A stretch of DNA of 22,882 bases from a virus. The notes beneath the pieces are model-generated. The model did no database searches. It was given only the letters and a program-made list of their open reading frames with translations, and was not told the origin of the DNA. Position numbers and translations under genes: made by a program. Position 1 is the stretch's first letter. Every line of letters begins with the position of its first letter. Shown here piece after piece: positions 2,303 through 6,259 of this stretch. The stretch spans positions 1 through 22,882 of IMG/VR virus record IMGVR_UViG_3300032298_000105, one strand, 5' to 3'.

Positions 2303-2326
2303 GATTACTTACCGGATTTCTTTTTC
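2288..2326. repeat. Gene-junction repeat, copy 2
   Basis: Same blocks as at 1734-1768 (ctttttgggggccat / attacttacc / ttctttttc), spanning the end of the 158-aa gene and the start of the DUF6321-like gene. In both copies an upstream gene ending in a Lys-rich GK tail meets a MAPKK start. Confidence 0.75.
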
Positions 2327-2781
2327 TTCATCATGGATGCCGCAAGCTTTTGGTTATAAGCAAGCGTTCCAGGATTTAATTTACCGCCTTGAAGCGCAGC
2401 AGCACCAATGGCAGCACGAGTACCGACAGTCTTCAGTACACTTTTGCCAACAGCTTTGACCGCACCTTTAGCAACGGCAGGGGCAGCCTTAGCGGCTTGA
2501 GCAGAGAGACGATTGATGGCGTTATAGCTGCTGCCTCCACCCGTTGCCCGAATGGTATTCATGGTACCACCCTTGACGGGGTTCTTGGGAAGCTTTGGAA
2601 GACGAGGAGAGTTTTGACGGTTACTGGATGTGCGCGTCCCCGCTGAAAGGGGCCCCTGTTGTTTCATGGTTGAAACTTGGGTAGGGCGGGGCCTCGGTTG
2701 AGAACCCCCCGCATTGCCCTTAATACGCGCTTGACGGGTAGCCGAACTTGTCTGGCGGTTGTCCTTACGCATGTTAGGCAT
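2305..2781 (-). CDS. Basic Ala/Lys-rich protein, paralogue of the 265-aa neighbour
   Basis: A 158-aa, strongly basic protein without a membrane-length hydrophobic segment. The first 55 residues (TRQARIKG, Pro/Arg-rich, GPLSAGTRTS) align by eye with the start of the upstream 265-aa protein (TRQERIKG, Pro/Arg-rich, GPMKPGTRTS), so the two are paralogues or share a module. The second half is Ala, Lys and Val-rich, for example KAAPAVAKGAVKAVGKSVLK, resembling histone H1-like tails in composition. It ends MMKKKKSGK. The ATG lies 5 nt after the 265-aa gene's stop. No known domain recognised. DNA condensation or capsid packaging of this protein is only a hypothesis. Confidence 0.7.
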   Translation of the reverse strand: MPNMRKDNRQTSSATRQARIKGNAGGSQPRPRPTQVSTMKQQGPLSAGTRTSSNRQNSPRLPKLPKNPVKGGTMNTIRATGGGSSYNAINRLSAQAAKAAPAVAKGAVKAVGKSVLKTVGTRAAIGAAALQGGKLNPGTLAYNQKLAASMMKKKKSGK

Positions 2782-2786
2782 GGTCG

Positions 2787-3584
2787 TTACTTCATCTTTG
2801 TGGTATAGGTTTTGCCTTCCCAGACAAAGGTCTTCATGCCGGAGTTACGAGCAGAAGCAAAGGCATTGTCAAAGCTCTTAGCTTTAGACATCTTTGGGGC
2901 AGCCTTTTTGGAAGCACTACCTTTTTGATACTGTCCCGAAAAGGAGTCAGCTGCTTTCTTGGTAGGCTTAGGTGTCATTGCACCTTTAATGCTCTTACCA
3001 AGTGCGGTACCTGCCCTACGAGCAAGAGGGCCCAGAGCGGCGCTAGCGGCCTGCTCAATAGCACCACCAACAGCACCACGGCCAGCACCACCAACAGCGC
3101 GACCAGGGCGAACACTGCCACGAGTAGCAAGGGTATTCATCTGCCGTTGCATGGCAGTCTTGGCGCTACGCTTGACTTGAGCAGCAGCCTTAGCGGCAGC
3201 CCCTTGGGCCTTGAGCATGGCAGATTGAACGGGGTTCCGCTCGCCAGCAGCAGGCTTAACAACACCAGCTCCGACCTTTGGCAGGTTCACGCCTGCGCGT
3301 TGGGAATTAGGAAGCTTGATTGGTCCCTTGATTCCAGGTTGACCTTGGGCACGACTGCGAGCAGCAGCGGCTTTGGCTTGGATCTGGCGCATAGCAGGGC
3401 TGCTGCTATTAACCATAGGAGTGCCGGAAGTACGGGTACCAGGCTTCATGGGGCCAGCCTGGGCTCCACGGTTACCTACGGCTGTTTGACGGGGCTTAGG
3501 AGTGCTGGCAGGAGCCTTACCAGTACCTTTAATGCGCTCTTGACGAGTGCGTGAGCCAGTAACAGGAGCTTTTTTAGGAGCCAT
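2787..3584 (-). CDS. 265-aa histone-H1-like basic protein with WxGKxYTT tail
   Basis: The frame opens at a TTG (3593), but the ATG at 3584 gives MAPKKAPVTGSRTRQERIKG, matching the MAPKK starts of its neighbours, so I use that. The protein is very rich in Ala, Lys, Arg, Gly and Pro. Layout: Pro/Lys N-terminal module shared with the downstream 158-aa protein (1-60), Ala/Lys middle, a Gly/Ala hydrophobic stretch near 165-200, a KPTKKAADS linker, and a C-terminal module FDNAFASARNSGMKTFVWEGKTYTTK. I recall similar 'AFxxARxxGxxTFxWxGKxYTT' endings in small proteins of several phage groups, with no known function. Probably a virion or DNA-associated protein, by composition and position only. Confidence 0.72.
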   Translation of the reverse strand: MAPKKAPVTGSRTRQERIKGTGKAPASTPKPRQTAVGNRGAQAGPMKPGTRTSGTPMVNSSSPAMRQIQAKAAAARSRAQGQPGIKGPIKLPNSQRAGVNLPKVGAGVVKPAAGERNPVQSAMLKAQGAAAKAAAQVKRSAKTAMQRQMNTLATRGSVRPGRAVGGAGRGAVGGAIEQAASAALGPLARRAGTALGKSIKGAMTPKPTKKAADSFSGQYQKGSASKKAAPKMSKAKSFDNAFASARNSGMKTFVWEGKTYTTKMK

Positions 3585-3589
3585 GATGA

Positions 3590-4129
3590 TCAACCCATTC
3601 CAACGGTAGCCACGGGCAGGGCAAACAGAGTGCCAGGACCGATCAAATCACAGGACAGGGTGTCGCTAGTGGTGTACCATTGCCCACCACGAACGAGGGT
3701 AGCAGCCGTCACAGCACCACCAGAAACGGTCAGAGTAGCGGTAGCGCCATAGCCAGTGCCACCAGACAAGGCCACACCGGTATAGGTGCCGTTGGTATAA
3801 CCAGAGCCGTTGACACGGGTACCAAAGGAAGCAACAGCACCAGTTTCCTTACGGGTAGCAGTTCCCGTTACCTTTGCGGTAGGCAGGGTAGAGGGGGTAG
3901 TGCGAGCACGACGCACGGTGAAGATGGCAGCTTCGGCAACATCAACAGTTTGGTTAGCGGCCAATACGGTGGCAGCAGAACCGTAAGACGCCGCAACAGT
4001 TGTCGTGGTAGTAGTTCCACCCGACACATTAGTCGTGGTGTGAACCTTGTTGGTCTGTTGGTTTTCGCAACGACGGCCGGGGTCGTTAGAAATAGAACCG
4101 TAAGTAGTTCCGTTAGAAGTTGTAGACAT
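3590..4129 (-). CDS. Thr/Gly-rich beta protein with GxGYT module, putative virion protein
   Basis: A 179-aa protein with a Thr-rich N-terminus (including TTNVSGGTTTTTTVAAS) and a segment VDVAEAAIFTVRRARTTPST. Its C-terminal half is built of the repeat style VNGSGYTNGTYTGVALSGG, then GYGATATLTVSGGAVTAATL, then GGQWYTTSDTLS. This 'GxGYT...GGxGxGA...VxxGAV' pattern is one I associate with beta-stranded modules in tail, fiber and decoration proteins of marine phages. It is neutral, unlike its very basic neighbours, so probably exported or virion-borne. It lies between an HNH gene and the H1-like gene, 5 nt from the latter's start. A related module occurs as an insert in the tail tubular protein B gene here. 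Confidence 0.7.
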   Translation of the reverse strand: MSTTSNGTTYGSISNDPGRRCENQQTNKVHTTTNVSGGTTTTTTVAASYGSAATVLAANQTVDVAEAAIFTVRRARTTPSTLPTAKVTGTATRKETGAVASFGTRVNGSGYTNGTYTGVALSGGTGYGATATLTVSGGAVTAATLVRGGQWYTTSDTLSCDLIGPGTLFALPVATVGMG

Positions 4130-4152: not shown

Positions 4153-4470
4153 CTAGCTAGTTGTCCAGGAAAGGACTTTCGAAAAATTAGACTGGTCAAA
4201 AGAGTCTTGACCAATCCACCAAGATAACCAATGGTTCGAACCTTTTGATTGGTTACACTTGATACAGGCGGGCACTACGTTAGACGTGGTATCGTGCCCA
4301 CCACGGGCTTTTGGAATGACATGATCCAAAGTTAGATTATGATCGGAGCCGCAATAAGCACACTGGTTATTCCAATGTTCCTTAATTGCTGATCGCCAAA
4401 GTCTCTTAGCTTCTGAGGATGTCATGGCCTTTAAGTTAAAGAGGTAGTCGGAAGGGGCTTCCAGAATCAT
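4153..4470 (-). CDS. HNH endonuclease
   Basis: A 105-aa stand-alone HNH nuclease of the McrA-like type. CAYC (Cys37/40) and CIKC (Cys69/72) form the structural zinc site. LTLDHVIPKARGGHD (46-60) supplies the catalytic DH pair (Asp49, His50) and a downstream His59. SNVVPAC gives the conserved Asn64. There is no obvious DNA-recognition domain beyond the first 35 residues, so specificity is unknown. The ATG at 4470 follows the 49-aa gene's stop by 22 nt; no Shine-Dalgarno is seen. Small HNH genes in T7-like phages are usually free-standing homing endonucleases, and its insertion among packaging-region genes fits that. All motif residues are present, so it is probably active. Confidence 0.88.
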   Translation of the reverse strand: MILEAPSDYLFNLKAMTSSEAKRLWRSAIKEHWNNQCAYCGSDHNLTLDHVIPKARGGHDTTSNVVPACIKCNQSKGSNHWLSWWIGQDSFDQSNFSKVLSWTTS

Positions 4471-4492: not shown

Positions 4493-4642
4493 TTACTTCT
4501 TCTTTTTAGGGAATCCAGCTTTCATGTTAGCGTAAGCCTTCGGGGTAATCGTAGACTTACTCTTGGGCCGACTCTTACCCGCTGCCTTGCGAGCATTCAT
4601 GTTGGCGTAAAGACCCGGAGGTTTGGCGTTTCCTTTGTTCAT
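4493..4642 (-). CDS. 49-aa basic GLYAN-type mini-protein
   Basis: Found by hand translation: 49 aa starting MNKGNAKPPGLYANMNARKA and ending in four lysines. The opening KPPGLYANxxAxR matches a motif I recall from many small phage proteins (KPPGLYANIxAKRxRI...GSGEKMRKPG). Here a second, partial copy of the pattern (KAYANMKAGFPKKKK) replaces the usual C-terminus, so it may be an internally duplicated or shortened form. Its ATG overlaps the TGA of the upstream 92-aa gene in an ATGA, indicating coupled translation. No Shine-Dalgarno of its own. Function unknown. Confidence 0.72.
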   Translation of the reverse strand: MNKGNAKPPGLYANMNARKAAGKSRPKSKSTITPKAYANMKAGFPKKKK

Positions 4643-4917
4643 TTTTTTGTGGATTTACCGTTGGAACCATTACGGGCTCGATTCTTTGATGGCGATTCTT
4701 TAACTAGTCGGCCACTCTTTGTGTGGGAAAGATCAGACCCACCCTTACCCATCACACCACGTTTCCGTCGTGCGTCGGCAAGATCAGCCCGATACTTCTT
4801 ATCCGTTGGAGACTTATTCTCCTTAGTATCGTAGGCAAGTTTCTTTGCGTATGCTTCGGAGTTTTTCCGGTAATACGCAGCACTACGCTTAGGGGTTGGT
4901 GTTTTCTTTGGCGCCAT
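4639..4917 (-). CDS. Basic 92-aa MAPKK protein with SHTKSG motif
   Basis: The frame opens at 4959, but the ATG at 4917 has AAGGA 8 nt upstream and yields MAPKKTPTPKRSAAYYRKN, so I take that as the start. The protein is highly basic. A middle section (YRADLADARRKRGVMGKGG) is followed by SDLSHTKSGRLVKESPSKNR and ends ARNGSNGKSTKK. I recall this last arrangement (xxRAxLxxAxRxxGxxGxGxxxDxSHTKxG...KxxxxNRxRN) from small proteins of many marine phages; no function is established to my knowledge. It overlaps the upstream membrane protein gene by 29 nt and the downstream 49-aa gene by 4 nt, so the three are probably translated as a chain. Confidence 0.78.
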   Translation of the reverse strand: MAPKKTPTPKRSAAYYRKNSEAYAKKLAYDTKENKSPTDKKYRADLADARRKRGVMGKGGSDLSHTKSGRLVKESPSKNRARNGSNGKSTKK

Positions 4918-5134
4918 TGTTTTGTTCCTTAAAGAATACTTCGTTTTCAAGGCGCTCAATCCTTTCGTTAGAAATACTTACTCTTTCGACAAGTACCTCA
5001 ACTGATTTAGCAATGTTGTGAAGAGTGATCAAGTGCCAACTAAAGAGTGCTAGGAAAGCAGTTGCTGCTAAGTTCCTAAGCATTGTTGACATATCCTCAT
5101 CATTATTATTATTACCTGATGGCCCGTTCGACAT
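4889..5134 (-). CDS. Small membrane-anchored coiled-coil protein (holin or spanin-like candidate)
   Basis: From the ATG at 5134 the protein is 81 aa. A polar N-terminus (MSNGPSGNNNNDEDMSTML) is followed by one hydrophobic segment, LAATAFLALFSWHLITLH (about 22-39), then a heptad-like charged helix (KSVEVLVERVSISNERIERL) and a polar tail. The upstream part of the frame is ignored because GGAG and GGAGG lie just before this ATG. It starts inside the last 23 nt of terS and runs 29 nt into the next gene. One N-terminal membrane segment plus a periplasmic-type coiled coil resembles i-spanins (Rz, T7 18.5, which also follows gene 18) but also some small holins. No lipobox partner is seen nested in it, so the spanin idea is tentative. 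Confidence 0.7.
   Translation of the reverse strand: MSNGPSGNNNNDEDMSTMLRNLAATAFLALFSWHLITLHNIAKSVEVLVERVSISNERIERLENEVFFKEQNNGAKENTNP
4926..4930 (-). promoter_or_regulatory. Ribosome binding site of the 92-aa gene
   Basis: AAGGA on the minus strand, 8 nt before the ATG at 4917. It decides between the upstream opening of the frame at 4959 and the MAPKK start. Confidence 0.6.
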
Positions 5135-5342
5135 CCTCCATCTCCAATTCAAGACTACTAAATAGGTTGGCAAGTGGAGAACCGAGGACAGGAACGCCCG
5201 TGATATTATTTTTAGCAAGCCAATCAGCGGCGGCTTTGATGTCTTGCGTTGTAGCGGTGCCGGACTTAATGCGACCAATCAATTCGTTGGTGACGAGTCC
5301 GTGAAGCTCGTTAAACTGATCTTCATTTGCTCGTTGTGTCAT
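5112..5342 (-). CDS. terS: Putative terminase small subunit (T7 gp18 position)
   Basis: A 76-aa acidic-neutral helical protein: FNELHGLVTNELIGRIKSG, then ATTQDIKAAADWLAKNNITG, then PVLGSPLANLFSSLELEMED. The layout of LHxxVxxEL..RI.SG..T..DI..A..WLKxNxI followed by a short L-rich tail is the pattern I associate with small terminase (DNA maturase A-like) proteins of podoviruses, which recognise DNA for TerL. It is the right size (T7 gp18 is 89 aa) and sits after the fiber and lysis genes, as gene 18 does. Unlike T7, terL is separated from it by about 4 kb of extra genes. The start ATG is 2 nt after the upstream stop. Family assignment is moderate because such proteins diverge strongly. Confidence 0.65.
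   Translation of the reverse strand: MTQRANEDQFNELHGLVTNELIGRIKSGTATTQDIKAAADWLAKNNITGVPVLGSPLANLFSSLELEMEDVERAIR
5135..5145 (-). promoter_or_regulatory. Ribosome binding site inside terS for the membrane protein
   Basis: GGAG (5142-5145) ends 7 nt before the ATG at 5134, with a second GGAGG directly against the start. It supports the internal start inside terS over the longer reading frame. Confidence 0.6.
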
Positions 5343-5704: not shown

Positions 5705-6259
5705 TTATTTAGAGGATAGTTTACGGAATGTCATGTACCACCCAGACCCATTTCCATCAACCATCCACCGTTTGGACCAGTTTTTCCAGGTATAAGAGAC
5801 ATTTTTACCACCCCAGCCGGGTTTTGGGTAGCCTCCGTTGGCATTATCCATCTCTCCATACGGGTCATGACATACCACATGGGTATCCGTAAGGCCCACA
5901 ACCAACATCCAATGCCCACCACCCCTTGGGGCATGAGCAGGGCCATGATGGAGGATGCCACAAGCCACAGGATAGCCAGCATCTAACTCCTTTTCAAGAG
6001 TGGTACGGGTTCCATTTGTGTGAAAGGTTGCTTTGACCCCATAATCAGCTGCTGCCCGGATGTGTGCGGTTGCTTCGGTTGTATCACCGTACTTGAGTAC
6101 CGTCTTTAGATAATTATCGTCGGCATTAGCCCCAGAAAGGGCTTCTGGATTGAGGTACTTGATAGCCATAGCAGCCGTACTTGAGAAGCACATACGACTA
6201 CCATGACGGGTGGTTGAATCAAGCTGAGGGAAGTACTGACCAACGTTAAGGCGTACCAT
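5705..6259 (-). CDS. C39-like cysteine peptidase (endolysin candidate)
   Basis: A 184-aa protein with a papain-like C39 (Peptidase_C39_2 type) fold. Cys24 in RMCFSSTAAMAIKYL is the nucleophile, His116 in RGGGHWMLVVGLTD the base, and Asp132 in CHDPYGE the third catalytic residue. A Tyr/Trp-rich C-terminus (YTWKNWSKRWMVDGNGSGWY) completes the domain. No signal peptide or wall-binding domain is seen. C39-like proteins in phages lacking a classical lysozyme gene are thought to cleave peptidoglycan cross-bridges; here it stands 12 nt after a holin-like gene, so an endolysin role fits. T7's amidase (gene 3.5) would lie outside this window, so the presence of a second lysin cannot be excluded. Alternatives: virion maturation peptidase or bacteriocin-type peptidase. 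Confidence 0.8.
   Translation of the reverse strand: MVRLNVGQYFPQLDSTTRHGSRMCFSSTAAMAIKYLNPEALSGANADDNYLKTVLKYGDTTEATAHIRAAADYGVKATFHTNGTRTTLEKELDAGYPVACGILHHGPAHAPRGGGHWMLVVGLTDTHVVCHDPYGEMDNANGGYPKPGWGGKNVSYTWKNWSKRWMVDGNGSGWYMTFRKLSSK

Follow-up and report, generated by a model that had tools for sequence, protein, structure and literature searches.

What are the two small basic proteins encoded in tandem on the minus strand of virus record IMGVR_UViG_3300032298_000105? A sequence-only reading had taken P1 (158 aa, 2305..2781) and P2 (265 aa, 2787..3584) for paralogous, histone-H1-like late proteins of a T7-like podovirus. The two ORFs are present at these coordinates. P1 is a basic protein predicted to be mostly disordered, and P2 consists of an N-terminal module shared with P1 (N-module), a variable Ala-rich middle and a folded C-terminal module (C-module). 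The earlier observation was right, the histone label is unsupported, and the interest of the locus lies in the C-module, the most informative part, which that reading did not mention. The window analysed, 22,882 bases long, covers the virus record in full.

The nearest named DNA matches of the window were Synechococcus phages, so the host of this phage is likely cyanobacterial. Around P1 and P2, the tail tubular protein A, the gp14-type and gp13-type internal virion proteins, the small terminase and a C39-like endolysin were recognized from profile matches. The tail fibre, the capsid and the gp15- and gp16-sized proteins were named from their place, size and conservation in relatives. The surroundings of P1 and P2 are a phage late region of T7-like (cyanopodovirus-like) type, and the two are genuine late genes, as had been proposed. 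The gene order in relatives is TerS-g92-g49-HNH-g179-P2-P1-(DUF6321)-...-TerL, with TerS and TerL the small and large terminase subunits; TerL of this phage lies outside the window. The small terminase subunit (76 aa, 5112..5342, minus strand) was recognized by PF11123 and phrog_891. Next to it are two tiny, very basic, conserved proteins, g92 (4639-4917, phrog_6437) and g49 (4493-4642), followed by an HNH endonuclease (4153..4470, minus strand), a syntenic marker that this phage has in common with phages Syn5, P-SSP7 and S-RIP1. Directly upstream of P2 lies g179 (3590..4129, minus strand), a 179-aa Thr/Gly-rich protein that is syntenic in relatives and weakly matches tail fibre, baseplate and virion structural PHROG families. 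An 83-aa DUF6321 protein (PF19846; 2051..2302, minus strand) lies directly downstream of P1, and another tiny, very basic, conserved protein is encoded at 1750-1884 (phrog_2423).

The place of P2 near TerL had suggested that it could be the small terminase. This was rejected because TerS is a separate gene, and the PF11123 profile (T7-like small terminase) matched neither P1 nor P2. Like the C-module, DUF6321 is a small basic module that phages use either by itself or as a tail, and according to PHROG profiles it is also the C-terminus of far longer phage proteins; the sequences of the two modules differ. At the endolysin position, the window (5705-6259) and relative L034 have a C39-like peptidase, and relative L007 (4022-4432) has a glucosaminidase. 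The glucosaminidase of L007 and the C39-like peptidase both match parts of phrog_10051, one PHROG endolysin family.

Comparison of the window with relatives in viral contigs gave dN/dS of 0.13-0.28 for P1 (six comparisons) and 0.17-0.47 for P2 (four comparisons). Six comparisons among the relatives themselves gave 0.10-0.34. The reading frames are conserved in relatives, and P1 and P2 are, judged from these substitution patterns, real genes under purifying selection. When 19 P2 loci were aligned, the window included, P1 was also present in 14. The tandem was kept in 13 of the 18 relatives with P2; four (L009-L012, L012 being G002) have P2 and then the large terminase without P1 between them, and one (L016) ends at the contig edge. 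In three long contigs the identity of P1 and P2 was 35-53%, while g179, HNH and g92 were mostly 85-97% identical, the exception among these conserved neighbours being g92 in L034 (61%). The tail fibre and gp15/gp16 were as variable as P1 and P2 in the same contigs. The middle of P2 was absent in L008, L013 and L014. Variation also affected the ends of P2: the frame of L004 stops without a C-module, P2 of L018 is without the N-module, and in the P2 orthologues of L017, L020 and L021 the C-module is replaced by a different C-terminus of 52 aa, which suggests exchange of C-terminal modules. P1 and P2 could be spacer proteins that evolve fast and have no specific role, retained through gene order and low cost. 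Their low identity beside the conserved neighbours, the lack of P1 in 4 of the 19 P2 loci and the missing middle of P2 in three relatives fit this explanation, but dN/dS well below 1, near-invariant columns in the C-module of P2 and many invariant columns in P1 make it very improbable.

BLASTP of the pair aligned residues 11-52 of P1 (2626..2751, minus strand) with residues 9-53 of P2 (3426..3560, minus strand), with 24/45 identities and E = 1e-6. The local score of 113 was reached by none of 2000 whole-sequence shuffles of P1 (best 95) and by one of 2000 shuffles within 20-aa blocks. With no whole-sequence shuffle as good, the similarity of the N-module is not driven by composition only. The N-module profiles of P1 and P2 detected each other in most relatives, with an alignment probability of 97%. 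Past the N-module the two proteins differ, as had been noted: the score was 68 against a shuffled mean of 48.6, and 38 of 2000 shuffles were as good. The similarity there is weak and mostly compositional, and the two stretches are not convincingly related. The term paralogous therefore fits the first ~45 residues and not the unrelated remainder, nor the four relatives that have P2 without P1 or the module-less P2 of L018. Since only about 45 N-terminal residues are common, P1 and P2 have a shared module and do not represent a whole-gene duplication. Gene conversion between P1 and P2 was also considered. The similarity of the N-modules averaged 59.7 within loci and 60.8 between loci, with 4390 of 5000 permutations as high; being no higher within than between genomes, it gives no sign of ongoing conversion. 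In the more distant locus L151, a C-module protein with no N-module match in its N-terminus is directly followed by a P1-type protein that has the N-module.

Like linker histone H1 and chlamydial Hc1-type proteins, P1 and P2 are basic, disordered and contain Ala and Lys. Both have a pI of 12.0, with a net charge of +29 for P1 and +44 for P2. Ala makes up 15% of P1 and 19% of P2, Lys 11% of each and Arg 8%. The tail of linker histone H1 is very Lys-rich; P1 and P2 are Ala-rich, as proposed earlier, with Lys at only 11%. High basicity is not special to P1 and P2, as the pI is above 9 for all but one of the 11 genes between 971 and 4917. Unlike H1 and Hc1, the two proteins have no profile match and no winged-helix domain, and they have in addition the conserved N-module and, in P2, the C-module. 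Pfam gave no family for P1 or P2 even at E <= 1, linker-histone, Hc1 and other DNA-binding families included, and PHROG and NCBIfam gave no match, so profile search found no H1-type family. No globular DNA-binding domain or winged helix was seen in the AlphaFold2 models, a weak negative for P1, whose alignment had 14 rows (mean pLDDT 55). The model of P2 (58 rows) was disordered or of low confidence except for a helix in the region 118-155, a short helix at 63-79 and the C-terminus. Histone H1 identity was rejected on both profile and fold.

A role like that of H1 tails is a separate matter: the disordered Ala/Lys/Arg-rich bodies of P1 and P2 would cover phage DNA or the host nucleoid, or would condense it. 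Their pI and charge, Ala-richness and disorder agree with such compaction. So do two precedents: PF07432 H1-like proteins, a different family from P1 and P2, are reported in four aquatic jumbo phages (PMC12619734), and microvirus Ebor is reported to have a virion protein described as 'putative charge-mitigating' (PMC11980548). Against it are the lack of any linker-histone, Hc1 or other DNA-binding Pfam match, the Lys content of only 11% and the about equal basicity of the adjoining genes, and it leaves the folded C-module and the conserved N-module unexplained. We think this role unlikely. DNA compaction through charge alone is possible, with no specific pointer to it among the tests run.

The C-module, the last 34 residues of P2 (2790..2891, minus strand), is common to many phage proteins and absent from P1 according to its profile. 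In the AlphaFold2 model the last ~26 residues of P2 form a helix (238-248) and a hairpin (252-261, strands 252-255 and 258-261) at pLDDT > 90, with 92-93 over the block, and this is predicted to be the sole confidently folded end of the protein. The pattern SFxxAFxxARxxGxxxFxWxGKxYxT spans about 28 residues, and F7, D8, A10, F11, A14, R15, F22, G26, Y29 and T31 are common to seven copies. We scanned viral contigs with the module profile and with a wider profile, which gave at least 242 and at least 293 relatives, respectively, 80 of each being kept. In the loci from the first scan, profile A1 matched 100 ORFs, which include overlapping loci of the same contigs. In 84 of these a large-terminase gene on the same strand lay no more than 3 kb downstream, in 13 there was none, and in 3 the sequence was too short; TerL was not a criterion for finding them. 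Profile A2 matched 185 of 12,321 real ORFs and none of the 12,321 reversed or 12,321 shuffled ones, the 185 not being a frequency because the loci were chosen for the C-module. These ORFs formed 66 clusters, 16 with a TerL-adjacent member, 39 without TerL and 11 with short flanks. The module was mostly C-terminal in all 16 TerL-adjacent clusters, and among 137 distinct instances it was C-terminal in 97, internal in 28 and N-terminal in 12.

The C-module thus caps small basic proteins encoded just upstream of the TerL gene in T7-like phages. One example is BAQ94017.1 of the uncultured phage MedDCM-OCT-S28-C3 (AP013539.1), a 212-aa protein annotated as DUF1027, whose gene is directly before TerL. 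It has the same C-terminal module as P2, but its N-terminus is unrelated to P2 and has no N-module match. Common ancestry within a single T7-like lineage, instead of function, may account for the adjacency to TerL. No close relative of P2 was found in cultured phages of the collections searched, nor were cultured relatives of two further types of TerL-adjacent C-module protein. Foldseek against viral models gave a 97-aa viral protein (probability 0.99, rmsd 1.2 over 29 columns, 45% identity, E 0.31). An annotated microvirus protein, QCS37219.1, has the same length as this match, the two being compared by length only. Among solved structures there was no credible relative (best E 0.41), and VIA comparison with three chains gave none with Z >= 2. 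The sole match of the hairpin strings in literature text was unrelated. No curated family or published description of the C-module was found, and no published description of P1 or P2, in searches whose reach excluded most subscription journals. The C-module is a recurrent folded phage module at the ends of, or inside, otherwise unrelated proteins.

Among carriers with known domains, the C-module ends an M15 peptidase in two microviruses (MK765623.1 and ON840023.1). These peptidases of ssDNA phages have the same C-terminal module as P2, with an enzymatic domain where P2 has a disordered basic body. Among the 40 listed of 113 phage records with relatives of this peptidase, the match reached the module end of the query in 2, and since so few do, the C-module is an optional addition on M15 peptidases. 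It precedes the lysozyme-like part of a crAss-like tail lysozyme (domain boundary read by eye), and in a 1546-aa lysin it lies between LysM and SLT domains. A 949-aa carrier has a virion structural PHROG match elsewhere in its sequence, a 161-aa protein of locus L170 has the module at both ends, and a Pseudomonas phage has a 46-aa ORF that consists of hardly anything else. Because most other carriers scanned had no domain of known function, the link to lysins depends on few cases. From this link one could propose that the C-module binds peptidoglycan or the envelope and that P2 aids the endolysin or loosens the wall late in infection. The M15 fusions, the copy beside the lysozyme domain of a tail protein, the copy flanked by LysM and SLT, and the location of P2 in the block after the C39-like endolysin gene agree with a function in lysis or cell exit. 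We give it a low probability, as most microvirus M15 peptidases are without the C-module, most carriers are not known lysins, and P2 itself has no hydrolase domain in Pfam and no obvious signal peptide by eye.

The corresponding interval of Syn5 has the order TerS-gp50-HNH-gp52...gp58-gp59-TerL, in which gp53, gp54 and gp58 are annotated as structural. P1 and P2 occupy the same HNH-TerL interval, with homologous genes nearby: g92 is 63% identical to Syn5 gp50 and g49 74% identical to gp59 over 35 aa. P2 and P1 could be the functional equivalents of gp53, gp54 and gp58, as minor proteins of the capsid or as internal proteins that are ejected, and the weak matches of the adjacent g179 to virion structural families point the same way. 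However, neither P1 nor P2 resembled Syn5 gp52-gp58, P-SSP7 050 or S-RIP1 020-022 in sequence, and a capsid-specific partner leaves the C-module in microviruses unexplained; a purely structural role is improbable. The C-module was also absent from the genes of the HNH-TerL interval in Syn5, P-SSP7 and S-RIP1.

We prefer, at somewhat less than an even chance, to regard P1 and P2 as late, disordered, cationic accessory proteins, with P2 docked by its C-module and acting most likely at the packaging, virion or cell-exit stage. Synteny, TerL adjacency, purifying selection, the fold, the lysin and M15 fusions and the Syn5 structural genes were counted for this docked-accessory reading. The swapped C-module in L017, L020 and L021 and its lack in L004, Syn5, P-SSP7 and S-RIP1 were counted against it. 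The two proteins are encoded between the small-terminase and lysis genes and the large-terminase gene. P2 would be a disordered polycationic late protein tethered by its C-module, a putative docking module by which different payloads would reach a common partner. The cationic body of P2 may bind a polyanion, either phage DNA under packaging or the anionic cell envelope, and P1 would be a variable partner of P2 with the same N-module. The packaging or virion stage was placed first because of the gene position. The capsid proteins of tailed phages and of ssDNA microviruses are unrelated. As both groups of phages carry the C-module, its partner is more likely host-side or nucleic acid than capsid.

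In most genomes of aquatic phages, the small basic hypothetical proteins have yet to be read. If the C-module were a general docking tag, hundreds of these proteins could be approached through their sequence, as counted in the two scans (at least 242 and at least 293 relatives). Lysins of ssDNA and dsDNA phages would then be linked. A broader proposal, which we consider doubtful, is that the C-module is an undescribed mobile mini-domain by which unrelated phages dock to one host-side ligand, with P2 as its bare cationic carrier. The carriers in this proposal belong to ssDNA microviruses and to crAss-like, T4-like, T7-like and other tailed phages, and have the module on lysins, large virion proteins and small disordered late proteins.

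In bacteria the C-module was rare, with one locus in the genome collection. A Flavobacteriales MAG (L111 / L195) encodes an S46 peptidase with the C-module at its C-terminus, by which a strictly phage-only distribution was rejected. Matches were present in 4 of 296 genomes of the phylum of this MAG, itself included; two of the four had weak, chance-like matches. Another of the four, L196, has an open frame of 384 aa in which a longer version of the C-module occurs twice, the second copy being clear (E 9.5e-10).
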